Below are positions 28,168 through 61,290 of a stretch of DNA of 64,000 bases, piece by piece. Under the pieces are notes generated by a model, which did no database searches, was not told where the DNA came from, and saw nothing but the letters and a program-made list of their open reading frames with translations. Position numbers and translations under genes: made by a program. Numbering within the stretch: the first letter of the stretch is position 1; every line of letters begins with the position of its first letter. The DNA is from an uncultured Hyphomicrobiales bacterium (lineage in GTDB: Bacteria; Pseudomonadota; Alphaproteobacteria; Rhizobiales; Xanthobacteraceae), in NCBI GenBank assembly GCA_903878085.1, contig CAIRGJ010000062.1, positions 1 through 64,000 on the forward strand, read 5' to 3'.

Positions 28168-29094
28168 TTACCGTGCGCCCAGCGTGCGCGCCGCAAGCGC
28201 TGCGGCCGACGTCCGATTTTCCACGCCAAGCTTGTTGAATATCTGCTCCAGGTGTTTGTTCACGGTTCGCGGGCTGAGCGTGAGGATTTCAGCGACGTCG
28301 CGGTTTGACTTGCCGCGCGCGATCCAGAGCAATACTTCCGCCTCGCGTTGCGTAAGTTGCAGTTTGTTGCGAAGCACCAATTGATCGTTGTTCGGATCGC
28401 CTTCGATCAGCCGAAGCAGGATTTCGTCGGAGCCGATCTGGCTGATAACCGACAATTCCAGTTTGATCGGCGAGTCGGGGGCGTCCAGGCGCATGCCCTC
28501 GGACGTGTTTGGGGGCTTGCGGTCGGCGGACTGGTGCAGCCATTCCTGGATATGGGCCGGCAAGACATAGGCATCGTTGAAATCCGGCAAGATCGTGCTC
28601 AACAGCTTGGTCGCTTGCGGCGTTGACCACAAAATCCGGCCGGCGCGATTGGCGGCAAGAAGAAACCGCCCCGAAGCGTCGAGCGCAGCGCGGGCGCTTT
28701 GCGAAATACGGGCGTTCGACAAGTGCACCCGAATGCGGGCGAGCAACTCGTCTGGTGCGATCGGTTTGGTGACGTAGTCGACGCCGCCGGCATCCAGGCC
28801 TTTGATAATGTCCCCGGTTTCGCTGAGGCCCGTCATGAAGATGATCGGCACGTGACTGAGGGCATTGTTGCGCTTCAGCCGTCGGCAGATCTCAAAACCG
28901 TCCAGGCCAGGCATAACCGCGTCCATCAGGATAACGTCCGGTGTGATGCGTTCGATCAGCGAAAGCGCCTGCTCGCCGTCGAGCGCGACCAAAACCGTCA
29001 TGCCTGCGCCTTCGATGGCGTCGGTCAGCATGCGCAGCATATTCGGCGAATCATCGACGACGAGAACAATATCGCGCGGCTCGTGGCTAACCAT
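28168..29094 (-). CDS. Response regulator, receiver plus LuxR-type HTH
   Basis: The 308-residue protein has a receiver domain (about 8-125; acidic VVDDS, phosphoacceptor in DVILMDAVMP, KPI lysine). A PAS-like middle region (about 140-235, starting ASGRFLLAANRAGRILWS) and a C-terminal LuxR/FixJ HTH (LTQREAEVLLWIARGKSNRDVAEIL) follow. It starts at ATG 29094 inside the 3' end of the kinase gene (8-nt overlap), so the two form a coupled pair. It is expected to bind the divergent control region at 32.7 kb and drive the urt-formamidase operon. Confidence 0.9.
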   Translation of the reverse strand: MVSHEPRDIVLVVDDSPNMLRMLTDAIEGAGMTVLVALDGEQALSLIERITPDVILMDAVMPGLDGFEICRRLKRNNALSHVPIIFMTGLSETGDIIKGLDAGGVDYVTKPIAPDELLARIRVHLSNARISQSARAALDASGRFLLAANRAGRILWSTPQATKLLSTILPDFNDAYVLPAHIQEWLHQSADRKPPNTSEGMRLDAPDSPIKLELSVISQIGSDEILLRLIEGDPNNDQLVLRNKLQLTQREAEVLLWIARGKSNRDVAEILTLSPRTVNKHLEQIFNKLGVENRTSAAALAARTLGAR

Positions 29095-32000
29095 GGTCGC
29101 TCCGGAACGACTCCAGGACGGCCACATAACGTTTGAGATCGAAGCCATCGGATAAGACCCTCATGTAGGACACAAAATCCTGGTGAACGGCGGAGTTGCT
29201 CTCGATCGCGTTCAGTTTGTTTTGAATGCCGCGCATGTAGCCGATCTGCCCGAGCCGGATCAGCTCGTCGATATCGCTTTGTGAGGGCATCTTCGTCGGC
29301 GTCAGCATCTCGGCGGTGATGATCTGGGGCTCGTCCGGCTTCTCGTCATGCACCCACTCGATGTCGAGCAGCGCATGAATTTTACCGAGCAATTGACGCA
29401 GATCGAACGGCTTGATCAGGTAGTCGTCATTGACAGGGTAGGGCTCGGCTTTGTGTTTGGGGTCCGGGGCGAACGCCGACAGCATGACAATGGCGGGACG
29501 GTCGGGCCGCATCAGGCGAAGCCTCTCGGCAACCTGCCAGCCATCCATGTCGGGCATGGCAACGTCGAGCAGAATCAGATTTGGCTTATGTTGTTCTGCG
29601 AGTTCAAGGCATTCCGCGCCCGAACCCGCGCTGAGAATGGTGAAGTCGAGCGGCTCGAGCAGGTCGCGAACCAAGATACGGTGGTTTTCGTCGTCATCGA
29701 CGACCATGATGGTTTGCCGCGCGCCGCGATAGGTGCGAACGCGGTCTTCCATGATTGAGGTCGTGCGTGGATTGAACACTTCGGATAGCAAAAGCTTTAC
29801 GCGGAATGTGCTGCCTTTGCCAACTTCGCTGGTAACGCTGATCTCGCCGCCCATGATCTCGGTCAGGAGGCGCGTGATGGTGAGGCCGAGTCCGGTGCCG
29901 GTCGCTTTCCGGCTTCGCGACGCACGGGCCCGTTCGAATGGCAGGAAAATTCGCTCCAGATCGTCGGCGTGGATGCCAATGCCGCTGTCTTCGACGATGA
30001 ATTCGGCGACCTGGTTGCGATAGTTCATCCGGAAAGTGACCGACCCGACGTCGGTGAACTTAATGGCATTGGACAAGAGATTGATCAGGATTTGCCGCAA
30101 TCGGTTTTCATCGGTGTTGACCGCGAAGGGTTGCCGCTCCGGCGGGAAGAAATGGAAGCCGATGCCGCGGGCGGTTGCCTGAAGCTGGAACATGCCGACC
30201 AGTTGATTCAGGAATTCCTTGGTACGGACCTCGGTTCGGTCCAGATGAAACCGTCCAGCTTCGATCTTGGAAATGTCGAGCAGCCCGTCGATGAGCCCGG
30301 ATAAATGCTCGGCGCTGTGGCGGATCACTTTCACCGCCGCCGTTCGCTTCGGCGGAATGCTGGGGTCGCGCTCCAGAACCTGCGCGTAGCCCAGGATCGA
30401 ATTCAGCGGCGTACGCAACTCGTGACTTAAGCCAACCAGATGGCGGCTTTTGGCTTCACTGGCGGCTTCGGCGACCTCTTTGGCTCGTTGCAGCTTTGCG
30501 TCGGTGCGTTTGTGGGCTTCGATCTCCTGCATCAGCAGATCGGTCTGCCGGGATGTCTCTTCCTCGGCGACGCGCCGGCTTTCTTGCGCAAGCACCAGAA
30601 GCCAAGCGCCGATGCCGGCGATGATGGTGAGGATGAAATAGACCGTCCAAAGCGCCGATTTGAGCCCGTCGCCATTGATGTAGGAATCCAGTGTGATCTG
30701 GAAATACACCATCGCCAGGACGGCGCCGATCAGCGCTGAGAATAACAACAACACGCCGAGATAGCGGCCAAGATTGGTATTGATGGTTGCGACCGCGGAT
30801 TCCGGAAACAAACGCTTCAAATTCTTCAGGAATTGATTGGAGACGCGGGCGTGCGGCTTGCAAAGGTCATGGCAGCGCGTTTCGAGCGAGCAGCATAGCG
30901 AGCAGATCGGGCCGGAATAGGCCGGGCACTGCGCCATGTCCTCGGGCTCGAACGGGTGCTCGCAGATGACGCAGCGGATGGTGGTCTGGCCGCTCCAGTC
31001 GTGCCGGGGGGAGCGCGCGATGTAGTAGGCGCCGCGGGTGGCGTAGGCGATGGCCGGCGCGGCAACGAAGGCAGTCGCCAAAGCGAGAAACGCCGCCAGC
31101 GCCTGCACCGTGGTTCCCAGCGCCCCGGTCAGTGCAAGGACGCCGACGGCTGTCGCCAGCACCATGGCGCCGACGCCGACCGGATTGATGTCGTAAAGGT
31201 GCGCGCGCTTGAACTCGATCAGCGGTGGACTGAGGCCCAACGGCTTATTGATTACGAGGTCGGCGACCAGCGCACCGACCCAGGCCACGGCGACGATTGA
31301 ATAGAACCCAAGGATGCGCTCAAGCGCTTTGAATATCCCGAGCTCCATCAGCAGCAAGGCGATGGTGACATTGAAGACCACCCAGACCACGCGTCCCGGA
31401 TGACTATGCGTCAGGCGTGAAAAGAAATTCGACCAGGCGATCGAACCCGCATAGGCGTTGGTGACGTTGATCTTGAGCTGAGAGACGATGACGAAGGCGC
31501 CGGTAAACGCCAACGCCATGTTGGGCGAGGAAAATACGTATTGAAAGGCAACCAGATACATCTGGGTCGGTTCGGCCGCCCTCTCCAGCGGGACGAGGTG
31601 TCGGACCGCGAGAAACGCGAGAAACGAGCCGGCCAAAAGCTTTAGTACGCCTGGGATGATCCAGCCGGGCCCGGCGGTCAGATTGGATATCCACCACCCG
31701 ACGCGGTTCTCGCTGTTGCGGGCCGGCAGGAACCGCAGGAAGTCGACCTGCTCGCCGATCTGCGCGATCAGCGAGAACACCACGGTCGAGGCCATGCCGA
31801 AAAGCACAAGATTGAACGAGTCGCCGGCCGGTTGCTCGGTGCCGGGGAAATGCGTCCATTCTTTGAACAGCGGCAAGTCAACCGCGGCGATAAATATGAA
31901 GGGAAGTAGATGCAGCACGATCCAGATCGGTTGGGTCCACAATTGAAATCGGCTGATGAACGTAATGCCGTGAGTGACAAGCGGAATGACGACGAGCGAG

Positions 32001-32467
32001 CTCACTACGTAGCCAATGAACAGCGGAACGCCGAAACACATTTCGAGTGCCAGCGACATGATCGCGGCTTCGATAGCGAAAAATAGAAACGTGAAAGAAG
32101 CATAGATCAGCGACGTGATGGTCGAACCGATGTAGCCGAATCCCGCGCCGCGCGTCAGCAGGTCGATATCGACGCCGTAGGTTGAGGCGTAATAAGCAAT
32201 CGGCAATCCGGTGAGAAAAATCAACGCGCCGACTAATAAGATGGCGGTCGTTGCATTGGTGAATCCGTAATTGACGGTGATGGCGCCGCCAATTGCCTCG
32301 AGGGCCAGGAATGAGATGGCGCCGATAGCGGTGTTGGCCACCCGCAAGCTCGACCAGCGCCGCGCACTCTTCGCCGTAAAGCGCAGCGCATAGTCTTCGA
32401 GCGTCTGGTTCGCGACCCACTGATTATAATTGCGGCGGACACGAACGATTTTCTGTTGCGCGGTCAT
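29087..32467 (-). CDS. NCS1-type permease fused to hybrid histidine kinase and receiver
   Basis: This is an 1126-residue multidomain membrane sensor. Residues about 45-480 form a 12-helix NCS1 (CodB-like nucleobase/allantoin permease) domain with ITVNYGFTN, GAGFGYIGS and KINVTNAYAGSIAWSNF. A cysteine cluster follows (C499, C502, C514, C522, C525, C526, C532, C536), which looks zinc-ribbon-like, then two more helices (about 568-590, 605-627) and a coiled coil. The DHp domain has SHELRTPL (His 682), the ATPase domain N800, DSGIGI and GTGLGL, and the receiver Asp 968 and Lys 1019. A conserved helical tail (about 1060-1126) ends it. It overlaps its response-regulator gene and is divergent from a urea/amide importer. 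It probably reads the substrate as a transceptor. Confidence 0.9.
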   Translation of the reverse strand: MTAQQKIVRVRRNYNQWVANQTLEDYALRFTAKSARRWSSLRVANTAIGAISFLALEAIGGAITVNYGFTNATTAILLVGALIFLTGLPIAYYASTYGVDIDLLTRGAGFGYIGSTITSLIYASFTFLFFAIEAAIMSLALEMCFGVPLFIGYVVSSLVVIPLVTHGITFISRFQLWTQPIWIVLHLLPFIFIAAVDLPLFKEWTHFPGTEQPAGDSFNLVLFGMASTVVFSLIAQIGEQVDFLRFLPARNSENRVGWWISNLTAGPGWIIPGVLKLLAGSFLAFLAVRHLVPLERAAEPTQMYLVAFQYVFSSPNMALAFTGAFVIVSQLKINVTNAYAGSIAWSNFFSRLTHSHPGRVVWVVFNVTIALLLMELGIFKALERILGFYSIVAVAWVGALVADLVINKPLGLSPPLIEFKRAHLYDINPVGVGAMVLATAVGVLALTGALGTTVQALAAFLALATAFVAAPAIAYATRGAYYIARSPRHDWSGQTTIRCVICEHPFEPEDMAQCPAYSGPICSLCCSLETRCHDLCKPHARVSNQFLKNLKRLFPESAVATINTNLGRYLGVLLLFSALIGAVLAMVYFQITLDSYINGDGLKSALWTVYFILTIIAGIGAWLLVLAQESRRVAEEETSRQTDLLMQEIEAHKRTDAKLQRAKEVAEAASEAKSRHLVGLSHELRTPLNSILGYAQVLERDPSIPPKRTAAVKVIRHSAEHLSGLIDGLLDISKIEAGRFHLDRTEVRTKEFLNQLVGMFQLQATARGIGFHFFPPERQPFAVNTDENRLRQILINLLSNAIKFTDVGSVTFRMNYRNQVAEFIVEDSGIGIHADDLERIFLPFERARASRSRKATGTGLGLTITRLLTEIMGGEISVTSEVGKGSTFRVKLLLSEVFNPRTTSIMEDRVRTYRGARQTIMVVDDDENHRILVRDLLEPLDFTILSAGSGAECLELAEQHKPNLILLDVAMPDMDGWQVAERLRLMRPDRPAIVMLSAFAPDPKHKAEPYPVNDDYLIKPFDLRQLLGKIHALLDIEWVHDEKPDEPQIITAEMLTPTKMPSQSDIDELIRLGQIGYMRGIQNKLNAIESNSAVHQDFVSYMRVLSDGFDLKRYVAVLESFRSDHG

Positions 32468-32808
32468 GACGCGCCAGCCTCGTCGCGGCGCCTGAGCCGC
32501 AATTTCGCGCCGCCTTGCAGCCTTGGGTTCACGCTTACTTGCCCCTCATTGCAACTTAGCCCCATCACGCGCGCCCGGCCGACGATAAACTGTGCAGTGT
32601 GCGATGCAAAAAAATGCACCGCATCAGCAATGCAAGGCGGGCGTCAGAATCCGCTAAAACCCCTATCTCCTGGGCATTATCCTACGCTGATATACGTAGG
32701 CGTATACGTCAATCGACGTATGCTGCAATGCACCAATCTAGCACAGCATGGCTTGCAGGAGCGCGGGACCATCGCCTCCTGGGATTAACCAAGCTCATGA
32801 GGCGACGC
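32468..32808. promoter_or_regulatory. Divergent control region of the sensor pair and the urt-formamidase operon
   Basis: This 341-nt non-coding region is relatively AT-rich. It contains TGCA-N6-TGCA (32605-32618), the dyad CCTACG (32681-32686)/CGTAGG (32695-32700) and three (T/C)ATACGT half-sites. No clear -35/-10 pair could be chosen. An in-frame upstream extension of the binding-protein gene to 32599 has no conserved content. Confidence 0.6.
32681..32722. promoter_or_regulatory. Candidate response-regulator binding sites, (T/C)ATACGT array
   Basis: TATACGT occurs at 32691-32697 and 32703-32709 as direct repeats 12 bp apart, and ACGTATG (32716-32722) is an inverted third copy. The dyad CCTACG-N8-CGTAGG overlaps the first. 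The site lies about 90-130 nt before the importer start, suitable for activation by the LuxR-type regulator. Confidence 0.55.
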
Positions 32809-34074
32809 ATGCCAAAGAAACCGCCGACCGATCGTCATTCTCCGTTCCGCCGCAAGCTTCTTCTGGGTACGGCCGCCTTATCGGCCACCGCAATGCTCGC
32901 GCCATCCAAGCTCTTCGCGCAGGCCTTCCCCACGGCCAAGGTCAATACGACCGGCTTGGCCGTGACCGACACCGAAGTTACCGTCGGCATTCTGCACTCC
33001 GTGACCGGCACAATGGCGATTTCGGAAACGGGATCGGTTGAGGCCGAGAAACTTGCAATCGAACAGATCAATGCGCAGGGCGGCGTCCTTGGGCGCAAAA
33101 TCAAGTTCATTCAGGAAGACGGCGCCAGCGACTGGCCAACATTTGCGGAAAAGGCGAAGAAGCTTCTGGTCAACGACAAATGCGCGGCCGTCATGGGCTG
33201 CTGGACCTCGGCGTCCCGCAAAGCGGTGCTGCCGGTGTTCGAGCAGTACAACGGCATGCTCTATTATCCGACCTTCTACGAAGGCCTCGAGCAGTCGAAG
33301 AACGTCATCTATACCGGCCAGGAGGCGACGCAGCAGATCATCGCCGGCCTCGACTGGGTGGAAAAAGAGAAGAGCGCCAAGACTTTCTATCTGCTTGGCT
33401 CGGACTACATCTGGCCGCGGACGTCGAACAAGATCGCCCGCAAGCACATCGAAGGTCATCTGAAGGGCTGCAAGGTGGTCGGCGAAGAATACTTCCCGCT
33501 CGGCCACACTCAGTTCAACTCGGTGATCAACAAGATCAAGCTCACCAAGCCGGACGTGATCTACGCGATCATCGTCGGCGGTTCCAACGTCGCTTTCTAC
33601 AAGCAACTCAAGGCCGCGGGTATAGATCTCAGCAAGCAGACTTTGCTGACGATCTCGGTGACCGAGGACGAGATCGACGGCATCGGTGGTGAGAACATCG
33701 CGGGCGCCTATGCCTGCATGAAGTACTTCCAGTCGCTCGACAATCCGAACAATAAGGCCTTTGTCCCGGCCTTCAAGAAGATGTGGGGCGAAAAGACCGT
33801 CATCGGCGACGTTACCCAGGCCGCTTATCTTGGGCCGTGGCTGTGGAAACTCACTGCTGAAAAGGCCGGCAGTTTCGACATCGACAAGATCGCGGCCGCG
33901 TCGCCCGGCGTGGAATTCAAGGGCGCCCCGGAAGGCTACGTCCGGATCCACGAGAACCATCATCTCTGGAGCAAGACGCGGGTCGGCCGCGCCAAGCTCG
34001 ATGGTCAGTACGAGCTCGTCTACGAAACCGCCAATCTGGTCGAGCCGGATCCATTTCCCAAGGGCTACCAGTGA
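32809..34074 (+). CDS. urtA: Urea/short-chain amide ABC transporter substrate-binding protein (UrtA-like)
   Basis: The 421-residue periplasmic binding protein starts with a twin-arginine-like signal (SPFRRKLLLGTAAL, cut near LFAQA). The mature part is a Urt/Fmd-type receptor: VTVGILHSVTGTMAISETG, MGCWTSASRKAVLPVFEQ, YYPTFYEGLEQSKNVIYTGQ and ISVTEDEIDGIGG. ATG 32809 has GAGG 6-7 nt upstream; ATG 32797 is an alternative. It leads a same-strand operon of urtBCDE, formamidase and an FmdB-like gene. Because no urease genes are in view, short amides such as formamide are as likely as urea. Confidence 0.9.
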   Translation: MPKKPPTDRHSPFRRKLLLGTAALSATAMLAPSKLFAQAFPTAKVNTTGLAVTDTEVTVGILHSVTGTMAISETGSVEAEKLAIEQINAQGGVLGRKIKFIQEDGASDWPTFAEKAKKLLVNDKCAAVMGCWTSASRKAVLPVFEQYNGMLYYPTFYEGLEQSKNVIYTGQEATQQIIAGLDWVEKEKSAKTFYLLGSDYIWPRTSNKIARKHIEGHLKGCKVVGEEYFPLGHTQFNSVINKIKLTKPDVIYAIIVGGSNVAFYKQLKAAGIDLSKQTLLTISVTEDEIDGIGGENIAGAYACMKYFQSLDNPNNKAFVPAFKKMWGEKTVIGDVTQAAYLGPWLWKLTAEKAGSFDIDKIAAASPGVEFKGAPEGYVRIHENHHLWSKTRVGRAKLDGQYELVYETANLVEPDPFPKGYQ

Positions 34075-34086
34075 TCTGACGCCAAC

Positions 34087-34109
34087 GCCCCGGCGCTTTG
34101 CGCCGGGGC
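34087..34109 (+). terminator. Intercistronic hairpin after the binding-protein gene
   Basis: GCCCCGGCGC and GCGCCGGGGC form a perfect 10-bp stem with a TTT loop, 12 nt past the urtA-like stop. There is no U-tract, so it more likely protects upstream mRNA and raises binding-protein output than ends transcription. Confidence 0.7.
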
Positions 34110-34178
34110 AAGCGCCGGCGCGTTGCGCCTGACGGTTCATCGAAATTCCGCCTGAAGCGGTGTTCACGGAGCGACGCT

Positions 34179-35105
34179 ATGCTCTTCGGCTATTCGTTCG
34201 GCGATCTCGGATCGATTCTGGTGATGCAGGGCTTCGCCGGGCTGATTCTGTTCTCGGTGTTCGTGCTGATGGCGCTCGGCCTTGCCATCATCTTCGGGCA
34301 GATGGGCGTGATCAACATGGCGCACGGGGAGTTCATGATCCTCGGCGCTTACATGACGTTCCTCAGCTCACATCTATTCCAGACCTATCTGCCGAGCTTC
34401 TTCGGCATCTATTTCTTCGTCGCTATGATAGTCGCGTTCCTGGTCTCAGGCGCCGCGGGGCTCGCGACCGAATGGCTGTTGATCCGGCACCTCTACCGCC
34501 GTCCCCTCGACACGCTGCTCGCCACCTGGGGACTGAGCCTGATAATGCAGCAGGCCTTCCGCACGATCTTTGGCGCCCGCGAAGTCGGCGTTGAGTTGCC
34601 GTCGTGGATGATGGGCTCGCTTAACGTCTCCAGCAGCATCGAAGTCCAGATCAACGGCCTGTTCGTCATGGCCTTGACGCTGATGATCACCGGCGCCGTG
34701 GCGCTGCTGATGTTCAAGTCTCGCTGGGGCCTGCAGGTTCGGGCCGTGGTCAACAACCGCGTCATGAGCGGCGCTGTCGGCATCGACACAAGGCGCATAG
34801 ACCGGCTGACGTTCGGTCTCGGTTGCGGCATTGCCGGCGTCGCCGGTTCGGCCTTCACCATGATCGGCTCGACCAGTCCCAGTGCCGGCCAACTCTACAT
34901 TGTCGACACCTTCCTCGTCGTCGTTTTCGGCGGCGCGCAGAGTCTGCTCGGCACCATCGCTTCGGCGCTGGCGATTTCGCAGTCGCAATCCACGCTCGAG
35001 TTCTTCACGTCGGGATCGAATGCCAAGGTCACGACGCTGCTGATCGTCATCGGGCTGTTGATGTTGCGCCCGCAAGGCCTGTTCGTCCTCAAGGTCAGGA
35101 AGTAA
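34179..35105 (+). CDS. urtB: Urea/amide ABC transporter permease UrtB-like
   Basis: The 308-residue LivH-type permease has about eight helices and the conserved FGQMGVINMAHGEFMILGAY motif, and ends VTTLLIVIGLLMLRPQGLF. ATG 34179 has GGAG upstream; the frame continues further upstream but reads as basic, non-membrane sequence. It pairs with the UrtC-like permease whose gene starts 7 nt after its stop. Confidence 0.92.
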   Translation: MLFGYSFGDLGSILVMQGFAGLILFSVFVLMALGLAIIFGQMGVINMAHGEFMILGAYMTFLSSHLFQTYLPSFFGIYFFVAMIVAFLVSGAAGLATEWLLIRHLYRRPLDTLLATWGLSLIMQQAFRTIFGAREVGVELPSWMMGSLNVSSSIEVQINGLFVMALTLMITGAVALLMFKSRWGLQVRAVVNNRVMSGAVGIDTRRIDRLTFGLGCGIAGVAGSAFTMIGSTSPSAGQLYIVDTFLVVVFGGAQSLLGTIASALAISQSQSTLEFFTSGSNAKVTTLLIVIGLLMLRPQGLFVLKVRK

Positions 35106-35112
35106 ATCGCCC

Positions 35113-36240
35113 ATGTCGAATTCTCTTTTCGGCAAACGCTCCTACGACGTGATCGCCTTCGTGTTGCTTGCGGTGTTGATCCTTGTCGTGCTGCCGCTGA
35201 CGCTCGACGCGTTCCGCCTCAACCTGTTCGGCAAATACCTCACCTACTCGTTTGTCGCGCTCGGGCTCGTGCTGTGCTGGGGCTACACCGGCATCCTCAG
35301 CCTGGGGCAGGGCGTGTTCTTCGGCCTCGGCGGCTACTGCATGGCGATGTTTCTTAAGCTCGAAGCCTCGAGCGTCGCCAACACCAAGATCCAGTCGACG
35401 CCGGGCATCCCCGATTTCATGGACTGGAATCAGATCACCGAACTGCCGTTTTTCTGGAGGCCATTCCACTCTCTGACGTTCACGCTCGCGGCGATCATCC
35501 TGGTGCCTTGCATCATGGCCTTCGTTTTGAGCTTCGCGATGTTCAAACGCCGGGTCGGCGGCGTCTATTTCGCCATCATCACCCAGGCTTTGTCGGCGGT
35601 GATGACCATCTTGATCATTGGCCAGCAGGGCTACACCGGCGGCGTCAACGGCATCACCGATCTGCGCACGCTGCTCGGCTGGGACATCCGCCCCGATCAC
35701 TCTAAGGTCATTCTCTATTTCGTCTGCTGCGTCTTGCTGCTCGGTTGCATCTTGCTGGGACGCTTTGTGCTCACCAGCAAGCTCGGTCGCATCCTGGTCG
35801 CCATCCGCGACAAGGAAGATCGCGTCCGGTTCTCGGGCTACGACGTCGCCAATTTCAAGGTGTTCATCTTCTGCGTCGCATCCGCGTTCGCGGCCATCGG
35901 TGGCGCCATGTTCACCTTGCAGGTTGGCTTCATGTCGCCGTCCTTCGTCGGCATCGTGCCGTCGATCGAGATGGTGATTTTCTGCGCCGTGGGCGGCCGG
36001 CAATCGCTGGTCGGCGCCGTCGCCGGCGCGCTGCTGATCAACTACGGCAAGACCGTGTTTTCCGAAAGCTTTCCAGAACTGTGGCTGTTCGCGATGGGCG
36101 GCTTGTTCATTGCCGTGGTGCTCGCGTTCCCGCGCGGCCTGGCCGGCCTGATGACCGACCAGGTGATGCCGTGGGTCACACGGATGAGGAACGGCAAGGG
36201 CGGCGCCACTCCGAGCATCAGCCCGTCGCCGGCAGAGTGA
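35113..36240 (+). CDS. urtC: Urea/amide ABC transporter permease UrtC-like
   Basis: The 375-residue LivM-type permease has about ten helices. Characteristic segments are GYTGILSLGQGVFFGLGGY and the coupling-loop region LVAIRDKEDRVRFSGYDVANFK, followed by GGAMFTLQVGFMSPSFVGI. It contains the central insertion (residues about 85-120) typical of UrtC rather than generic LivM. Confidence 0.93.
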   Translation: MSNSLFGKRSYDVIAFVLLAVLILVVLPLTLDAFRLNLFGKYLTYSFVALGLVLCWGYTGILSLGQGVFFGLGGYCMAMFLKLEASSVANTKIQSTPGIPDFMDWNQITELPFFWRPFHSLTFTLAAIILVPCIMAFVLSFAMFKRRVGGVYFAIITQALSAVMTILIIGQQGYTGGVNGITDLRTLLGWDIRPDHSKVILYFVCCVLLLGCILLGRFVLTSKLGRILVAIRDKEDRVRFSGYDVANFKVFIFCVASAFAAIGGAMFTLQVGFMSPSFVGIVPSIEMVIFCAVGGRQSLVGAVAGALLINYGKTVFSESFPELWLFAMGGLFIAVVLAFPRGLAGLMTDQVMPWVTRMRNGKGGATPSISPSPAE

Positions 36241-36250
36241 GAAGATAGGC

Positions 36251-36997
36251 ATGGCAAACAACACGGATTTCCTGCTTGCGCTCGAAGGGGTCACGGTTTC
36301 GTTCGACGGTTTCAAGGCCGTCAACGACCTCAATCTTTACATCGACAAAGGTGAGCTGCGCGTGATCATCGGCCCCAACGGCGCAGGCAAGACGACGGTG
36401 CTTGACCTGATCTGCGGCCGTACCAGGCTTTCGTCCGGCTCGATCAAATTCAAAGACGAGGAGATATCAAACCTCAAAGAGCAGCAAATCGTCCGCCGCG
36501 GCATTGGACGCAAATTCCAGACGCCTTCGATCTACGACGACCTCACGGTGTTCGAGAATCTCGAACTGTCCTTTCCGCGCGGGCGCGAAGTCTTCGGCGC
36601 GCTGTTCTGGAACCGTACGACCGAAATCATTGAGCGAGTGAGGGAGATCGCCGAGATGATCTACCTTTCGGATCAACTCGACCGTTCCGCCGAGACGCTG
36701 AGCCATGGACAGAAGCAGTGGCTCGAGATCGGCATGTTGCTGATCCAGGATCCCGAGCTGCTGATGCTCGACGAGCCGGTCGCCGGCATGAGCGTGTCGG
36801 AACGCACGAAGACCGCGGCGCTGCTCAACACCATCATCAAGAACCGCTCGGTGGTGGTGATCGAGCACGACATGAAGTTCGTCGAAAGCATCGCGCACCG
36901 CGTCACGGTACTGCACCAGGGCAAGGTCCTGTGCGAGGGCGACATGGAAAAGATCCATGCCGACCCGCGCGTCAAGGAAGTCTATCTCGGCCATTAA
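36251..36997 (+). CDS. urtD: Urea/amide ABC transporter ATP-binding protein UrtD-like
   Basis: The 248-residue LivG-type ATPase has Walker A GPNGAGKTT, the UrtD-characteristic GRKFQTPSIYDDLTVFENLE, signature LSHGQKQWLEIGM (an LSHGQ form typical of UrtD), Walker B LLMLDEPVAGM and switch EHDMKFV. It starts 10 nt after urtC and ends 11 nt before urtE. Confidence 0.94.
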   Translation: MANNTDFLLALEGVTVSFDGFKAVNDLNLYIDKGELRVIIGPNGAGKTTVLDLICGRTRLSSGSIKFKDEEISNLKEQQIVRRGIGRKFQTPSIYDDLTVFENLELSFPRGREVFGALFWNRTTEIIERVREIAEMIYLSDQLDRSAETLSHGQKQWLEIGMLLIQDPELLMLDEPVAGMSVSERTKTAALLNTIIKNRSVVVIEHDMKFVESIAHRVTVLHQGKVLCEGDMEKIHADPRVKEVYLGH

Positions 36998-37008
36998 GGA
37001 GAACTGCG

Positions 37009-37698
37009 ATGTTTAACGTCCGCGGACTCAACGTCGCCTACGGCCAGAGTCAGGTGCTGCATGGCATCGATATGTCGGTGGCGCAGGGCGAGATCGTTGC
37101 CGTGGTCGGCCGCAACGGCATGGGTAAATCGACGCTGATGAAATCGCTGATCGGCGTGCTGCCCTCGCGGTCGGGCGAAATCTCGGTCCAGGGAACGGAT
37201 GTCGCCGGCCTGCCGAGCCATTCGCGGGTCAAGCATGGCCTCGCTTATGTGCCGCAGGGCCGCCAGATTTTCGGCACCATGACAGTGAAGGAAAACATCC
37301 AGACCGGTCTGGTGGTGACGGGCAAGACCGAAATTCCCGACGAGATCTACAGCCTGTTCCCGATCCTCGCCGAATTCGAAAAACGGCGCGGCGGCAATCT
37401 ATCCGGCGGTCAGCAGCAGCAATTGGCCATTGCCCGTGCGCTCGCCAGCGATCCGAAGATTTTGCTGCTCGACGAACCGACGGAAGGCATTCAGCCGTCC
37501 ATCATCAAGGATATTGCCGTCGTGCTGAAAGAGATCAGGCAGCTGCGCAACCTAACCATCGTGGTCTGCGAGCAGGTGCTGAGTTTCGTGCTCGATGTCG
37601 CCGACCGGATCTTGGTCATGGAGAACGGCCGCATCGTGCATTCAGATCGGCGCGATCAAGTCGATGAGGCGGCGATCGCCGGTTACCTCGCCGTCTGA
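37009..37698 (+). CDS. urtE: Urea/amide ABC transporter ATP-binding protein UrtE-like
   Basis: The 229-residue LivF-type ATPase starts MFNVRGLNVAYGQSQVLHGI at ATG 37009 (AAGGAG upstream). It has Walker A GRNGMGKST, LAYVPQGRQIFGTMTVKEN, signature LSGGQQQQLAIARAL, Walker B ILLLDEPTEGIQPSII and a Cys in the switch region (VVCEQVLSF), as in other UrtE proteins. Confidence 0.94.
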   Translation: MFNVRGLNVAYGQSQVLHGIDMSVAQGEIVAVVGRNGMGKSTLMKSLIGVLPSRSGEISVQGTDVAGLPSHSRVKHGLAYVPQGRQIFGTMTVKENIQTGLVVTGKTEIPDEIYSLFPILAEFEKRRGGNLSGGQQQQLAIARALASDPKILLLDEPTEGIQPSIIKDIAVVLKEIRQLRNLTIVVCEQVLSFVLDVADRILVMENGRIVHSDRRDQVDEAAIAGYLAV

Positions 37699-37789: not shown

Positions 37790-39019
37790 ATGGCTAAGAC
37801 CTTGATCAAAATCGACCTGTCGGAGACGCCTTACAAGAACGACATGATCCACAACCGCTGGCACCCGGACATTCCGATGGTAGCATGGGTCAAGCCGGGT
37901 GACGATTTTATCGTCGAGACCTACGACTGGACCGGCGGCTTCATCAAGGACAACGACTCCGCCGACGACGTGCGCGACATCGATTTGACCATTGTGCATT
38001 TCCTGTCGGGCCCGATCGGCGTCGAAGGGGCCGAGCCCGGCGACCTTCTGGTTGTCGATCTCCTGGATATCGGCACGCTGCCGGAGAGCCAGTGGGGCTT
38101 CAACGGCTTCTTCTCTAAGAAGAACGGCGGCGGTTTCCTCACAGAACACTTCCCGCTGGCGCAGAAATCGATCTGGGATATCTCCGGCCTCTACACGCAT
38201 TCCCGGCACGTGCCGGGCGTGAAATTTGCCGGCTTGATCCATCCCGGCCTGATTGGCTGTCTGCCGGATCAGAAGCTGCTCGATACCTGGAACAAGCGGG
38301 AAGGGGACTTTATCGCGACCGACCCGAATCGGGTGCCGCCACTCGCGGCCCCGCCGTTCGCAGCAACGGCTCATGCCGGCGCCGCGAAAGGCGACGTCAA
38401 GAACAAGATTGCGGCCGAGGGCGCCCGTACCGTGCCGCCGCGCGAACATGGCGGCAACTGCGACATCAAAGATCTGTCGCGCGGTTCGAAGATTTACTTC
38501 CCGGTCTATGTGAAGGGCGGCGGTCTTTCGATGGGAGACCTGCACTTCAGTCAGGGCGACGGCGAGATCACCTTCTGCGGCGCTATCGAAATGGCCGGCT
38601 GGGTGCACCTCAAAGTCGAGGTGCTCAAGGGTGGCATGGCGAAATACGGTATCAAGAATCCAATCTTCAAGCCGTCGCCGATCACGCCGAACTATAAGGA
38701 CTATCTGATCTTCGAAGGCATCTCGGTCGACGAGCAAGGCAAGCAGCACTATCTCGACGTCCACGTCGCCTATCGACAGGCTTGTTTGAATGCGATCGAG
38801 TACATGACAAAGTTCGGCTACACGCCGGCGCAGGCTTATTCGATCCTCGGCACCGCCCCGGTACAGGGCCATATCTCCGGCGTAGTCGATATTCCGAACG
38901 CTTGCGCCACGCTCTGGCTACCGACCGAAATCTTTGATTTCGATATCATGCCGAGCGCGGCAGGGCCGATCAAACATATCAAAGGTGGCATCGATCTTCC
39001 GCTGTCGCCGGACAAATAA
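37790..39019 (+). CDS. fmdA: Formamidase (acetamidase/formamidase family)
   Basis: This 409-residue cytoplasmic amidohydrolase converts formamide to formate and ammonia in characterised relatives. Typical segments are MIHNRWHPDIPMVAWVKPGD, LTEHFPLAQKSIWDI, PGVKFAGLIHPGLIGCLP, PPREHGGNCDIKDLSRGSKI and LHFSQGDGEI. ATG 37790 is preceded by GGAAGGAG. Placed directly after urtE, it indicates that the importer feeds an amidase, so nitrogen supply from formamide-like amides is the best reading. Confidence 0.93.
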   Translation: MAKTLIKIDLSETPYKNDMIHNRWHPDIPMVAWVKPGDDFIVETYDWTGGFIKDNDSADDVRDIDLTIVHFLSGPIGVEGAEPGDLLVVDLLDIGTLPESQWGFNGFFSKKNGGGFLTEHFPLAQKSIWDISGLYTHSRHVPGVKFAGLIHPGLIGCLPDQKLLDTWNKREGDFIATDPNRVPPLAAPPFAATAHAGAAKGDVKNKIAAEGARTVPPREHGGNCDIKDLSRGSKIYFPVYVKGGGLSMGDLHFSQGDGEITFCGAIEMAGWVHLKVEVLKGGMAKYGIKNPIFKPSPITPNYKDYLIFEGISVDEQGKQHYLDVHVAYRQACLNAIEYMTKFGYTPAQAYSILGTAPVQGHISGVVDIPNACATLWLPTEIFDFDIMPSAAGPIKHIKGGIDLPLSPDK

Positions 39020-39102: not shown

Positions 39103-39441
39103 ATGCCCACTTACGAATATCTCTGCGCCGATTGCGGCCCCTTTACCGAGATACGGCCGATGGCGGAAAGCGACCTTGGGCACGATTGTCCGCATTGCGG
39201 CGGCGAAGCGCCACGGGCCTATCTCACGGCACCTTATATGTCCGGCCTGTCGGCCGAGCGCCGGCTGGCCCATGCCACCAACGAGCGTAGCGCGCACGCG
39301 CCTGCGACATCGGCGAGTCTCGGCAAAGGCCACGGCGCAGGCTGCTCTTGCTGCTCCGGCAAATCGTCGCGCCTGACCCGACGCAACAAGGACGGCAGCA
39401 AGAGCTTCCCGACGAGTCGGCCCTGGATGATATCGCATTGA
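39103..39441 (+). CDS. fmdB: FmdB-type zinc ribbon regulatory protein
   Basis: The 112-residue protein begins MPTYEYLCADCG and has a four-Cys zinc ribbon (CADC ... CPHC) in residues 8-31. A low-complexity tail carries a second Cys cluster (CSCC) and basic residues. FmdB was named as a putative regulator beside formamidase in methylotrophs; its action is not established. ATG 39103 matches the family start. It is the last gene of the amide operon. Confidence 0.85.
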   Translation: MPTYEYLCADCGPFTEIRPMAESDLGHDCPHCGGEAPRAYLTAPYMSGLSAERRLAHATNERSAHAPATSASLGKGHGAGCSCCSGKSSRLTRRNKDGSKSFPTSRPWMISH

Positions 39442-39789: not shown

Positions 39790-42700
39790 TTACCGCATCG
39801 CGTAATGTTTTGGGGCGGTCGCTTCACGGCCGATCAGTCTGGCATAATCCCCAATCGGCTGCGGCCGGCCGGTCAGATAACCCTGCATCGAGTCGCAACC
39901 TTCCTGGACCAGGAACGCATGCTGGATTTCGGTCTCGACGCCCTCCGCCAGGATCGGAACGTCGAGACTGTGGCCGAGACCGATCACCGCACGGACGATC
40001 GCCATCGAGTGGCGGTTGTGTTCCAGGTCACCGATAAAGGCACGATCGATCTTGATCCGGTCGAAGGCGAACGAGTGCAGATACGACAACGAGGAATATC
40101 CGGTTCCGAAGTCGTCCAACGCGATCTGCACGCCGAGCGATTTGAGCCGGCGCAGGATCGATACCGCCCGCGAAAAATCGTTGATCAACACGCCCTCGGT
40201 GATTTCCAGTTCGAGGCGACTTGGGACAAGGCCGGTTTCGAGCAATACCGAATGGACGAGGCTTGGCAGGTCGCCATGGTGGAACTGGATCGGTGAGACA
40301 TTGACGGCAATGGTGAGCGGCTGCGGCCAGGACGCTGCCTCGCGGCAGGCCTCGCGCAGCACCCATTCGCCCAGCGGAATGATGAGGCCGCTTTCCTCAG
40401 CAATGGGGATAAAGGTGGCGGGCGAGATCATGCCGCGTTTCGGACACTGCCAGCGGACCAACGCTTCAAAGCCGATGGTTTCGCCGGTCATGCGCACCTG
40501 GGGCTGGTAATGCAAGAACAGTTCCTGGTGCGCGACGGCCGATCGTAAATCTCCTTGCAGGGAGAGCCGCTCGCTCAGCTGAATGCCCATCTCAGCCTCG
40601 AAGAACAATACCGATCCGCGCGCTTCGGCTTTGGCGCGATAGAGGGCGGCATCGGCGTTGACCATCAGCGTCTTGGCGTCGGTGCCGTCGGCAGGGTAGA
40701 CCGCGCCCCCGATGCTGAGGCCGATCTCCAGCCGCCGGCCGTCGATCTCGAATTCATTCGTAAAGGTGGCGAGCAGCCGCTCGGCGAGCGCCAGGCCGGC
40801 CTCCGGTTGCGCGCCATCCGCGGCGATCAGCACGAACTCGTCGCCGCCAATGCGCGCCAGAAAAGCGCCTGCGGCGGCCGTTTGCAGGCGCCGGGTAACC
40901 TCGCACAGCAGCGCATCGCCAACCGAATGCCCGAATACGTCGTTGACTTCCTTGAAGCGGTCGAGGTCAAGGGTCAGGATGGCGAACTGGTCACGGCTTG
41001 CCGCCGCCTTAGCGAGCGTAACGGCAAAACATTCGTTGAAGGCGGCGCGGTTAGGCAGGTCCGTCAGATTGTCGAAATGCGCCATATGCGCAATGCGCTG
41101 TTCCGCGTGCCTGCGCTCTGTCACATCGTCAAGAACGGTCAACAAGTATTGCGCTTTTCCATCGTCGTTGCGAACGGCAATGCTCTTAGCCGTTGCCAGG
41201 CGAATTCCATTTCCCGGAGTGTGGACGATATGGTCCTTGACCACGATCGGTCGATGCGACTGCAACGTCTCGTTGTTCTCGGCGATGATAAAATCGGCGC
41301 GTTCCTTCGGATATATTTCGCCGATTGTCTTGCCGATGACCTGCGTTCGCGAAACGCCAAACAGCTCTTCGGTGGCCCGATTGATCAGGCTGTAGCGCCA
41401 CTGGCTGGCGTCTTCCGGCGAGTTCAGTATGTCCTTCACCAAGATCGGGGCAGGAACATGCTCGATGATCGCATCAAGGAATTTTTTGGTGCGATGCAGT
41501 TGCTCCTCGGCGAGCTTGCGCTCAGTGATGTCCTCGTGCGTGGCGACCCAGCCGCCGCCCGCCATCGGTTGATTCACGACAGTCGTGATGCGGCCGTCGC
41601 CTGTCTCATTCACGTATTTTGATATTTTACCTTGGGCAATCGTGGCCCGAAGATCGCGAACAAATTCCTCCGGGTTGCCGGAAAAGGTTCCATGCGCAAG
41701 GCGACATTTGAGTAAATCGAGAATGGTATGGCCCGACTTCGCTACTTCCGGCGGAAAATCGTACATCTGCCGATAGCGGTCGTTGCAAACGACCAGCCGG
41801 CCCGCCGCATCGAACATGGCCAGGCCCTGCGACATGTTGTCGAAAGCCATATCGCGTTGCAGGCTTTGCTCACGGAGTTTTTTTCCGACCAGCCATACAC
41901 AGATGACAACTACGCCGCCGATCGCGAGCCCTATCGCAAGGGCCGCCACGACCATCGCGACAGCGCCACGTTTCCAATTGGCGAGAGCATCCGCGACTGT
42001 CGTGGTTGCCACCAGCGCAACCGGGTAATGCGGGAGCCTGCGCGCGGAAACCAGCCGTTCCTGGCCGTCGATTATGCCGATTTCCCGCCCCGTGCCATAA
42101 TCGGACGTCGCCAGCACCTTCAAGAATTTGCTCTGGGGAAAGGACTGCCCGACGGCCGCTTCTTGTCGGGGGTAGCGGACGAGCAGAGTGCCGTCGCGAT
42201 GGAAGAGCGCAATCGAATCATTCGCTTCATGCGCAATTGTCTGGAACAGTTGCTCGAAATACTCCAACTTCATAACGCCCGTCACCACGCCCAAGAACTT
42301 GCCATTTGCACCGGTGAACTTGCGCGCGACCGGGACGAGCCAACTTCCGGTAACCGGGCTGCGCAAAGGTTTGCCTATGAGTGAGGTCAACTGCGGGTCA
42401 GCGCCGAATTCTTCGTGAGGGTCTTGATCGGGGATCTTTACGCTCGGGGCTGGCCAGGAACGAGAGAAGTTGATCAGTCTTCCTTCCGCATCTGTCAGCA
42501 CAAAGGCGTCGATATACGGTAATGCACTTACTCGATCTTTGAGGCGTTGGTGAGTGTCATAGCCGGCCATCTGGCGTTCAAAGTCTTCCGCCGACGCGAT
42601 GCCGAGACTTTGCATCCGCTCGATCATGACCGTCTGAACAAGTTCTATCGATTGGAAACTGCGGTCAATCTGCTCGGCGAGCACCAGCGCGAGACTCTCG

Positions 42701-42936
42701 AGCGCTCGCTCCTTTTCGGCAAGATCGCGATCGCGAAGATTGGAAAGCAGGCTCGCCGTCGCTGCAACGACGACTGCGACCAGAATGATTCCACAAATGA
42801 CGATCAAACGAATTGGACGTGAGTGCCACGGGACCCGCTGGGCCGCAGAATGGCCCACGGCGGTCGAGGTTCCCTCAGGGGCGGCTTGCCCCTCATGGCG
42901 TCCAGTTGCATTGCGCTGCAAAGGTAATTCGCTCAT
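39790..42936 (-). CDS. Membrane GGDEF-EAL protein with Cache and PAS domains
   Basis: This large c-di-GMP protein has about 1048 residues. One helix near residue 45 and another near 335 bracket an extracytoplasmic double-Cache-type sensor domain. Two PAS domains follow (about 360-475 and 485-610), then a GGDEF domain with intact RIGGDEFV and an EAL domain with intact FEALVRW, DDFGTGYSSLSYL and ILAEGVET. Both cyclase and phosphodiesterase activities are therefore possible. I chose ATG 42936 (MSELPLQRN); ATG 42948 is equally possible. No partner gene is adjacent. Confidence 0.92.
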   Translation of the reverse strand: MSELPLQRNATGRHEGQAAPEGTSTAVGHSAAQRVPWHSRPIRLIVICGIILVAVVVAATASLLSNLRDRDLAEKERALESLALVLAEQIDRSFQSIELVQTVMIERMQSLGIASAEDFERQMAGYDTHQRLKDRVSALPYIDAFVLTDAEGRLINFSRSWPAPSVKIPDQDPHEEFGADPQLTSLIGKPLRSPVTGSWLVPVARKFTGANGKFLGVVTGVMKLEYFEQLFQTIAHEANDSIALFHRDGTLLVRYPRQEAAVGQSFPQSKFLKVLATSDYGTGREIGIIDGQERLVSARRLPHYPVALVATTTVADALANWKRGAVAMVVAALAIGLAIGGVVVICVWLVGKKLREQSLQRDMAFDNMSQGLAMFDAAGRLVVCNDRYRQMYDFPPEVAKSGHTILDLLKCRLAHGTFSGNPEEFVRDLRATIAQGKISKYVNETGDGRITTVVNQPMAGGGWVATHEDITERKLAEEQLHRTKKFLDAIIEHVPAPILVKDILNSPEDASQWRYSLINRATEELFGVSRTQVIGKTIGEIYPKERADFIIAENNETLQSHRPIVVKDHIVHTPGNGIRLATAKSIAVRNDDGKAQYLLTVLDDVTERRHAEQRIAHMAHFDNLTDLPNRAAFNECFAVTLAKAAASRDQFAILTLDLDRFKEVNDVFGHSVGDALLCEVTRRLQTAAAGAFLARIGGDEFVLIAADGAQPEAGLALAERLLATFTNEFEIDGRRLEIGLSIGGAVYPADGTDAKTLMVNADAALYRAKAEARGSVLFFEAEMGIQLSERLSLQGDLRSAVAHQELFLHYQPQVRMTGETIGFEALVRWQCPKRGMISPATFIPIAEESGLIIPLGEWVLREACREAASWPQPLTIAVNVSPIQFHHGDLPSLVHSVLLETGLVPSRLELEITEGVLINDFSRAVSILRRLKSLGVQIALDDFGTGYSSLSYLHSFAFDRIKIDRAFIGDLEHNRHSMAIVRAVIGLGHSLDVPILAEGVETEIQHAFLVQEGCDSMQGYLTGRPQPIGDYARLIGREATAPKHYAMR

Positions 42937-42948
42937 GCCTAGCAACAT

Positions 42949-44890: not shown

Positions 44891-46015
44891 CTATTCAGCT
44901 GCGTCGCGGCTCGTAATAACCGGGGCGAGCATCCAACCTACGATGCGCGGCCAACAGCGGTCTAGGGTGTTCTTGCCCATGAACAATGCCGCGTGGCGGC
45001 ATTGAGCCGTCTCTTTTCGAACATCGAGAGAGCGAACCAAACGCTCGGTCGCGAATAGTTGCGCCGGCGCGATCAGTTCGTCGTTGTGCGCTGCCAGCAA
45101 GAATAGGGGAACCCGCACATTCATCAGATCAATTGTCTTGCCTAAGGCGACAAATTGGCCGGTCGCAATCTCGTTTCGCCTATAGAGTTTCTCGATCACC
45201 TCAAGATAGTAGGGGCCGGGCAAGTCGACGGTCCATGCATACCAGTCCCGGAATATTGTTTCGAGCTTGGCAAATGCCGGTGAGCCGATAGGCTCGGGTG
45301 TTTGCAGCATTTGCCGAACGTCTTCGGCGCTGACCGTTTCCGGCCCCCAGAACCGCTGCACTTTGCGGCCGAGCACGCGGCCATCGCCGAGAGCGACTAA
45401 TTCCTGAAACAACGCCGGAGGGCTGGCCTCCACAAGCGAAGTCAAAGCGGATGGTGCGGCGGCGATGTCGATCGGCGCGCCGGCCAGCACCAGTTTGCGG
45501 ACCTTTGCCGGAAAGCGCGCCGCATAGAGCAGCGACAGCCAGCCGCCCTGACAAAGTCCGATAAGATCGACGGCGCCACCGAGTTCGTCGACCAGAACGT
45601 TGAGGTCGGCCAGGTAATCGTCGATCCTCAAAAAACGCATGTCGTCGACAGCCGAGCGCCAATCGGTAACGAACAGTCGCTTCAGGCCGGCCTTGCGCAG
45701 TGCGGCGACGAGGCTATGTCCGGGCGCCAGATCGACGACGGCCGCGCCATGGAGCGCAAACGGCGCGCAAAGCAAAGTAGGGATGCCGTTCGCAGCGATG
45801 CTGAAATCGCGCAAGCGCACGGTTTTTAGTTCGAGCGCTATCGTGTTGGCTGTGGCCCAATGCGGCTCACGCGCCGCAGCGGCATCGTCGGTTCCGACCG
45901 CGAGGCTCGCCCATTGCTTTGCCAGCAACGACGCAGCCTCGCTCACCGACGCGGCGGCAAGAACCGGCCACATCAACGCAAGACGCGAAAAATGTTGCGC
46001 CAATGGCTCGTACAT
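44891..46015 (-). CDS. PhaC-like alpha/beta hydrolase
   Basis: The 374-residue protein has an alpha/beta hydrolase fold with a PHA-synthase-style box LIGLCQGGW (putative nucleophile Cys 155), FVTDWRSA before it, and Asp and His candidates in LLAAHNDELIAP and AQCRHAALFMG. It is much shorter than PhaC and lacks the PhaC N-terminal domain. It may be a PHA-related thioesterase, depolymerase or synthase-like protein. It is downstream of phaC on the same strand with its own Fnr/FixK-like box. Confidence 0.8.
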   Translation of the reverse strand: MYEPLAQHFSRLALMWPVLAAASVSEAASLLAKQWASLAVGTDDAAAAREPHWATANTIALELKTVRLRDFSIAANGIPTLLCAPFALHGAAVVDLAPGHSLVAALRKAGLKRLFVTDWRSAVDDMRFLRIDDYLADLNVLVDELGGAVDLIGLCQGGWLSLLYAARFPAKVRKLVLAGAPIDIAAAPSALTSLVEASPPALFQELVALGDGRVLGRKVQRFWGPETVSAEDVRQMLQTPEPIGSPAFAKLETIFRDWYAWTVDLPGPYYLEVIEKLYRRNEIATGQFVALGKTIDLMNVRVPLFLLAAHNDELIAPAQLFATERLVRSLDVRKETAQCRHAALFMGKNTLDRCWPRIVGWMLAPVITSRDAAE

Positions 46016-61205: not shown

Positions 61206-61290
61206 GTTTTCTGCTCCGGGTTATCAGACGGGTCGCTTCTTGGTCCCCGCAAGCACGTCGCCCGTCCGCGCGCGCTCATGGGGGATTGGC

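Follow-up and report, generated by a model that had tools for sequence, protein, structure and literature searches.

Histidine kinases fused to a transporter domain are described as rare in a preprint on CbrA (PMC13022988). SLC5–kinase fusions such as CbrA had rightly been taken as established in a preliminary description of the DNA considered here: CbrA, CrbS/MxtR, RpuS and PrlS are SLC5/SSS-fused histidine kinases in which a LeuT-fold transporter domain is located N-terminal to the kinase, as it is in the sensor described below. CrbS/MxtR and PrlS represent hybrid kinases, and PrlS is accompanied by a LuxR-family regulator (PMC7918813, PMC13022988, PMC9100948). The way in which a carrier fold is turned into a receptor is an open question.

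Here, a sensor kinase gene (29087..32467, minus strand) and its surroundings were analysed in a 64,000-nucleotide window, i.e. positions 1 to 64,000 of contig CAIRGJ010000062.1 from an uncultured Hyphomicrobiales bacterium (assembly GCA_903878085.1). We consider that the encoded protein is probably a receptor kinase for urea or short-chain amides, derived from an NCS1-like permease and acting via a LuxR-type regulator on a divergent urtABCDE-fmdA operon. Transporter-fused kinases are known, as outlined above; an NCS1-type member was not found in literature searches on such fusions, which covered that literature in part, nor in those on amide or urea regulation, on CodB, on urease permeases and on the Klebsiella plasmid discussed below.

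Architecture and predicted fold of the sensor kinase

The gene, delineated by open reading frame (ORF), Pfam, hydropathy and a 36-row alignment, comprises one 1126-residue frame with an ATG start, as proposed in the preliminary description, which had omitted the (minus) strand. The protein consists, in this order, of an NCS1-like LeuT-fold permease/receptor domain (residues 1-488; 31004..32467; from fold search, residue mapping and conservation), an eight-cysteine domain (residues 499-536; 30860..30973), two extra transmembrane (TM) helices (residues 569-627; 30587..30763; from hydropathy and model helices), a HisKA and HATPase_c kinase core (residues 673-894; 29786..30451), a receiver domain (residues 920-1030; 29378..29710) and a helical tail, all encoded on the minus strand. 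Hydropathy showed the first half to be polytopic and placed the extra helices at residues 569-587 and 609-627, and Pfam assigned HisKA to residues 673-738, HATPase_c to 785-894 and the receiver to 920-1030. All 36 full-length rows have the kinase histidine H682 and the receiver aspartate D968. With HisKA, HATPase_c, a receiver and both phospho-residues present, the protein is a hybrid histidine kinase, and the intact kinase core and receiver, the two further helices and the eight clustered cysteines noted previously were all recovered. A histidine phosphotransfer (HPt) domain, which is optional in hybrids, was not found after the receiver: the last 96 residues gave no Pfam match at E<=10, and no HPt-type histidine motif was common to the 12 C-terminal tails inspected of 36. 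A contig scan of genomes returned at least 578 confirmed relatives, the best 80 of which were kept and are 63-89% identical to the sensor in the first half. A chance reading frame was ruled out because of these relatives and the invariance of all eight cysteines in the 36 aligned rows.

The identity of the N-terminal region as a transporter domain is supported by its predicted fold and by intermediate sequences. A fold search with the structure model identified a LeuT fold, closest to CodB and Mhp1, and the model aligned with 395 of the 400 residues of CodB, a 12-helix protein (PMC9379551). Of the full 12-helix NCS1-like permease proposed previously, the NCS1-like fold was therefore corroborated, and the twelve helices follow from the alignment with CodB rather than from a helix-by-helix count. 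The family search suggested at that time, covering the N-terminal and cysteine regions, yielded no useful direct match, the transporter fold being supported by the fold search and intermediate sequences instead. Neither a STAC nor a PAS domain was among the model matches to residues 495-660 (the presence of a STAC model in the library was not checked). A weak permease match, L114, was rejected as a sodium:alanine symporter.

The sensor module occurs in three forms, namely the hybrid kinase, a type 2 form, in which the permease and cysteine domains are fused to a kinase without a receiver, and a stand-alone permease. Tree support was 93/97 for the stand-alone clade, 100/100 for the type 2 clade and 82/35 for their union; the order in which permease and fusion arose is left unsettled by this tree, because the outgroup branch is very long. 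As a single fold, with its pocket kept, is found as permease, hybrid kinase and receiver-less kinase, transport and sensing become directly comparable. At the type 2 loci L094 and L100, FmdA and two receiver proteins adjoin the kinase; in L100, Pfam identified the two as a receiver-kinase and an OmpR-type regulator. The L095 locus, the contig of which is short, resembles these but has no visible FmdA. Two hybrid sensors from the same phylum (L101 and L102), approximately 47-48% identical, are accompanied by regulators of the LuxR type; these stretches yielded neither urt nor fmd genes, nor a palindrome of the kind described below within two mismatches.

A conserved, predicted pocket and the cysteine domain

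The pocket of the sensor is predicted to be formed by T126, F129, E133, Q236, E239, Q240 and N337. Mapping with HMMER placed Mhp1 Q121 at E133, Mhp1 W117 and CodB W108 at F129, CodB Q105 at T126 and Mhp1 N318 at N337, with Mhp1 S312/T313, the side-chain positions of the Na2 site, falling on K332/I333. We take Mhp1 W117 to be the substrate-stacking tryptophan position and S312/T313 to be sodium ligands. The sensor consequently carries K332/I333 instead of the Na2 sodium ligands found on TM8 of NCS1 carriers; the mapping of CodB T278/T279 is less sure, because HMMER opened a gap at these sodium threonines. Substrate roles have been described for Q105, W108, Q121 and N318 (PMC9379551). In TM6, approximately five extra residues (the QIGEQ region) precede the DxxR motif when compared with other NCS1-like rows. 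T126, E133, Q236, E239, Q240, D242, R245, K332, N334, N337 and Y339 were invariant among all 24 sensors and stand-alone permeases compared, and F129 was nearly so (leucine in some rows). The pocket common to sensors and stand-alone permeases suggests a common ligand, and the loss of the stacking tryptophan would suit a small, non-aromatic one.

By analogy with CbrA, K332 at the Na2 position suggests that sodium coupling is absent: in CbrA, Na2 is filled by lysine K196 and protons drive uptake (PMC13022988). The proposed reading can be sharpened, without becoming an exclusive alternative, into a true transceptor of the sort reported for CbrA, i.e. a working carrier that also signals; with K332 in the sodium site, it would be coupled to protons. 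The pocket residues common to the stand-alone permeases, the replacement of Mhp1 S312/T313 (whose roles are presumed here) by K332/I333, and the pairing in CbrA of an Na2 lysine with proton-driven uptake point in this direction. Ks-Amt5, on the other hand, indicates that a fused transporter domain may lose efficient transport (PMC8534201), and continued transport by the domain is therefore put forward tentatively, as a possibility somewhat short of even.

The stand-alone permeases share 40-54% identity with the sensor domain, and in six of the seven aligned loci their neighbours include urease, formamidase or amidase genes. The Acinetobacter permease adjoins ureE, ureF, ureG, ureJ, ureD and ureABC, that of Klebsiella directly follows urease genes, that of Moraxella adjoins fmdA-fmdB, that of Tsukamurella is located near fmdB-fmdA and that of Arthrobacter precedes an aliphatic amidase gene. 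In Methylovirgula, a single locus contains a stand-alone permease, fmdA-fmdB, a hybrid kinase, its regulator and an amidase; this locus best ties together the sensor, fmdA and the stand-alone permease. One Streptomyces permease neighbourhood has no urease, formamidase or amidase gene in its table, and another Streptomyces record lacks a gene table. More distant NCS1-like permeases adjoin carboxyltransferase, hydantoinase/oxoprolinase or C-N hydrolase genes. The 'cytosine/allantoin permeases' beside urease genes in Klebsiella (L126, 6956-8563) and Acinetobacter (L119, 8950-10557) were found to belong to the sensor-domain family, and may represent an unrecognised urea permease; a literature search on urease permeases revealed no report of a tested substrate for these stand-alone permeases.

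These neighbourhoods bear on the nature of the signal, for which the flux of urea, an amide or a nucleobase had been suggested previously. Sensing of a nucleobase, of hydantoin or of allantoin by the domain, the amide genes being merely one controlled nitrogen source, would accord with the cytosine and hydantoin held by the closest solved structures, with database labels of relatives as allantoin or cytosine permease, and with the hydantoinase/oxoprolinase genes beside some of the distant permeases. It is nevertheless highly unlikely in our estimation: purine, pyrimidine and allantoin catabolic genes were not seen in eight stand-alone neighbourhoods (with incomplete gene tables), urease, formamidase or amidase genes were present in seven of the eight with gene tables, and the stretch around QIGEQ in TM6 is different. 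Urea or an amide fits better than a nucleobase because the relatives adjoin urease, formamidase or amidase genes and because the stacking tryptophan of CodB and Mhp1 is replaced by phenylalanine (F129, or leucine in some rows); this part of the earlier suggestion is thus retained, the nucleobase fitting less well.

The cysteines of the eight-cysteine domain (C499, C502, C514, C522, C525, C526, C532 and C536) were invariant in all 36 aligned sensors, and only C144 and C953 occur elsewhere in the protein (ten in total). The domain is possibly a two-zinc, treble-clef-like finger; finger-like matches in fold searches were weak and not significant. The same tail forms the C-terminus of stand-alone permeases, with four cysteines in Acinetobacter and Klebsiella and eight in Methylovirgula; the Arthrobacter and Tsukamurella permeases have largely lost it. 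In the actinobacterial stand-alone permeases L129 and L130, the tail region is kept and most cysteines are gone. Since some kinase-free permeases already end in the same tail, its role is probably structural, as opposed to that of an input gained with the kinase. A cluster acting as the primary sensor (of zinc, an iron-sulfur centre or redox state), with the permease domain serving as a membrane anchor, would be consistent with eight invariant cysteines adjoining the kinase. This appears highly unlikely, considering that kinase-free permeases carry the same tail, that others have four cysteines or have lost them, and that the pocket stays invariant; a dedicated metal or redox input, regarded previously as possible, was accordingly not supported.

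The divergent urt-fmd operon and a palindromic site

The partner regulator gene (28168..29094, minus strand) encodes a receiver and a GerE DNA-binding domain according to Pfam, and is hence of the LuxR/NarL type. It overlaps the sensor gene, as reported previously, by 8 bp with its probable start at 29094 or by 62 bp if the ORF start at 29148 is used.

On the plus strand, diverging from the sensor gene, are located urtA (32797..34074; ORF from 32599, likely start 32797), encoding a substrate-binding protein with a twin-arginine translocation (Tat)-like signal recognised by eye, the permease genes urtB (34098..35105; true start probably further in) and urtC (35113..36240), the ATPase genes urtD (36251..36997) and urtE (37009..37698; ORF from 36718), the formamidase gene fmdA (37790..39019; ORF from 37595) and a gene for an fmdB-type zinc-ribbon protein (39103..39441; PF09723; ORF from 39049). 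The products of urtA, urtB, urtC, urtD, urtE and fmdA each scored above their own NCBIfam cut-off, with 542 bits for UrtA (TIGR03407, cut-off 493) and 773 bits for FmdA (NF045496, cut-off 500).

The proposed survey for the same fusion beside urtABCDE, covering the loci of the best 80 of at least 578 relatives, revealed a divergent UrtA in 69 of 72 loci; 54 of 61 contain FmdA and 73 of 77 the regulator (8, 19 and 3 loci, respectively, being left out for short flanks). Of 150 genomes from the order, 33 matched the sensor domain at E<=0.001, and 30, after removal of three weak matches, did so at E<1e-100; for the 398 genomes of a phylum sample, the corresponding numbers were 63 and 52, with eleven weak or partial matches removed. 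The sensor protein was present in 7 of 40 genomes of the source genus, and 537 of 72,556 plasmid records matched the domain, 342 of which are from Klebsiella. Within the order, the sensor was found in 14 of 14 genomes with a formamidase-type FmdA at E<=2e-99 (hypergeometric 8e-12), this cut being a gap picked after the list was seen and the test ignoring relatedness; it was found in 13 of 13 with FmdA at E<1e-170 and in 10 of the other 51 with any PF03069 match. In the 16 sensor genomes without a formamidase-type FmdA, the sensor adjoins another urt operon in every case, comprising all five genes except in L148, where urtABC only are present near a contig end. The UrtA proteins of these 16 loci are 36-42% identical to that of the window, and ureD and ureC follow in 3 of the 16.

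The tight linkage to urtABCDE, both in the 69 of 72 loci and in these 16 genomes, would also fit a trigger-type control, in which the domain itself binds little and would signal how active the UrtABCDE importer is, or the state of internal nitrogen. We regard this as unlikely, since the Methylovirgula sensor is found with fmdA and a stand-alone permease and no urt genes listed in its stretch, type 2 sensors accompany fmdA, and the pocket is conserved.

The gap between the sensor gene and urtA contains a palindromic, operator-like site, ATACGTCAATCGACGTAT (32704..32721, no strand assigned), identified by dyad counting and pattern scans, and a second, weaker palindrome, CTACGCTGATATACGTAG (32682..32699), with two mismatches to the consensus TACGTC(A/G)-N2-(C/T)GACGTA. 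The dyad ATACG-N8-CGTAT was present upstream of 38 of 76 sensor genes, a count inflated by close relatives; any dyad in one shuffled set reached at most 2. In a less redundant set (n=36 including the window, 34 with enough upstream sequence), 31 of 34 sensor genes have the site, with up to two mismatches, in the 450 bp upstream; these upstream regions (15.3 kb) contain 38 sites in total, as against 100 in the remaining 585 kb of the loci. Seventeen loci outside the derivation set, at most 80% nucleotide-identical to training loci in the best alignments and with divergent flanks, each contained exactly one site (13 exact), and the reversed-sequence control gave none in 305 kb. The site was located less than 250 bp from the sensor start in 13 of the 17 and at 0.6 kb in one; in L137, L142 and L145 it lies 2.2-3.5 kb from the sensor start, yet close to urtA. 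It falls between sensor and urtA in 15 of 17, L142 and L148 not being placed as the urtA query included translated upstream DNA. The sensor/urtA gap is the one place in the source genome with an exact copy of the site. The site mostly accompanies a LuxR-type regulator beside urtA, and this conserved palindrome bears out the earlier view that the sensor diverges from the operon that it, together with its regulator, probably controls.

In the proposed mechanism, urea, formamide or a close small amide would bind the central pocket at the TM3/TM6/TM8 junction, and the HisKA dimer would receive the resulting bundle/hash movement of the LeuT fold by way of the eight-cysteine domain, on the cytoplasmic side, and the two-helix hairpin. 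H682 would then hand on its phosphate to D968 in the receiver of the same protein, to the partner regulator of the LuxR type, or to both. We infer that this regulator binds the palindrome in the divergent gap and induces urtABCDE-fmdA-fmdB, the products of which would take up and hydrolyse the ligand.

Several results, in addition to the retrospective FmdA cut given above, count against this proposal. With regard to the fold, residues 1-500 of the window protein gave no PF02133 (Transp_cyt_pur) match at E<=10, the transporter domain has no Pfam or NCBIfam support, and direct family searches with residues 1-500, residues 495-545 and the C-terminal tail yielded nothing useful. PF02133 matched nothing in the source genome and 1 of 30 relatives, and at E<=0.1 it matched 1 of 24 sensors and permeases, a Klebsiella permease (38.1 bits). 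A profile of sensors and stand-alone permeases matched no PDB chain at E<=1; the profile that did match CodB (3.9e-27) and Mhp1 (4e-15) includes the NCS1 members L111 and L113 and was used for residue mapping only. In view of the missing PF02133 match, the protein was filed as NCS1-like rather than as a curated NCS1 member. With regard to the ligand, the UrtA proteins of both operon types, for the sequences tried, pass the TIGR03407 urea UrtA model, and urea and formamide are therefore both candidate ligands, which this evidence does not distinguish. With regard to the site, the pattern with up to two mismatches occurs at two places in the source genome (the other with two mismatches) and is not enriched there, because the backwards-pattern control gave five. 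No site within two mismatches was found at type 2 loci L094 and L100, where the sensor module is joined to another kinase, and its absence from sensor loci L101, L102 and L104 and from stand-alone loci L119, L126 and L127 argues against a simple rule. In Methylovirgula, the single site within two mismatches (at 12205) lies outside the sensor/fmdA gap.

Elsewhere in the window, a PhaC poly-beta-hydroxybutyrate polymerase is encoded at 46161-47960 and a depolymerase-like hydrolase at 44891-46015. A PnrA-like (Bmp) binding protein and an ABC permease (60129-62211, minus strand) possibly represent a nucleoside importer. Just past fmdB, a large protein (39790-42948) contains candidate PAS-, GGDEF- and EAL-like stretches recognised by eye only.

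Comparison with known systems

A homologue of the sensor is present on the Klebsiella pneumoniae plasmid pKPN3-307 type A (L118, KY271404.1, 5909-16264), where a 1126-residue protein annotated as PotE, 58% identical in the domain, accompanies luxR, UrtABC and amiF, with the palindrome present at one mismatch. The UrtABC-AmiF 'UTS' cluster of K. pneumoniae CG307 plasmids has been described (PMC5506382, PMC13060141); neither the excerpts consulted from the two papers nor counts of the terms 'histidine kinase', 'luxR' and 'two-component' pointed to the sensor beside it. If the ligand is urea or formamide, this plasmid-borne 'urea transport system' would have its own dedicated regulator. For Ectopseudomonas, one paper lists a hybrid kinase and a LuxR-family regulator together with a second urtABCDE operon, and makes no mention of a transporter domain in the text available (PMC13296017).

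More broadly, we see about an even chance that these proteins represent a further transporter-kinase lineage, built on an unrecognised NCS1-like family of urea/amide permeases that stand alone at urease and formamidase loci, the fused form being a sodium-independent urea/formamide transceptor that controls urea/amide uptake operons via one operator common to alpha- and gammaproteobacteria, including a plasmid family common in Klebsiella records. Should the ligand be urea or formamide, a predicted sensor, regulator, operator and target operon would be available for a common nitrogen pathway, as would a candidate substrate for the 'cytosine/allantoin permeases' beside urease genes.

The stand-alone permeases of Acinetobacter, Klebsiella, Moraxella, Tsukamurella and Methylovirgula share the pocket, and often the cysteine tail, of the sensor and lack a kinase. 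Compared with CodB and Mhp1, the sensor has E133 for Q121, F129 for W117/W108 and K332/I333 for the Na2 hydroxyls, as well as residues added before the TM6 DxxR motif and a fused kinase. Ks-Amt5 resembles it in that the fold of a nitrogen-compound carrier serves as a histidine-kinase receptor (PMC5764959, PMC8534201), but the Amt carrier fold is unrelated and the ligand is another. In contrast to the CbrA-type kinases, the predicted fold of the window sensor is nearest to NCS1 rather than SLC5, and, instead of a STAC or PAS match, the protein possesses an eight-cysteine domain and a two-helix hairpin, together with linkage to urea/amide genes.
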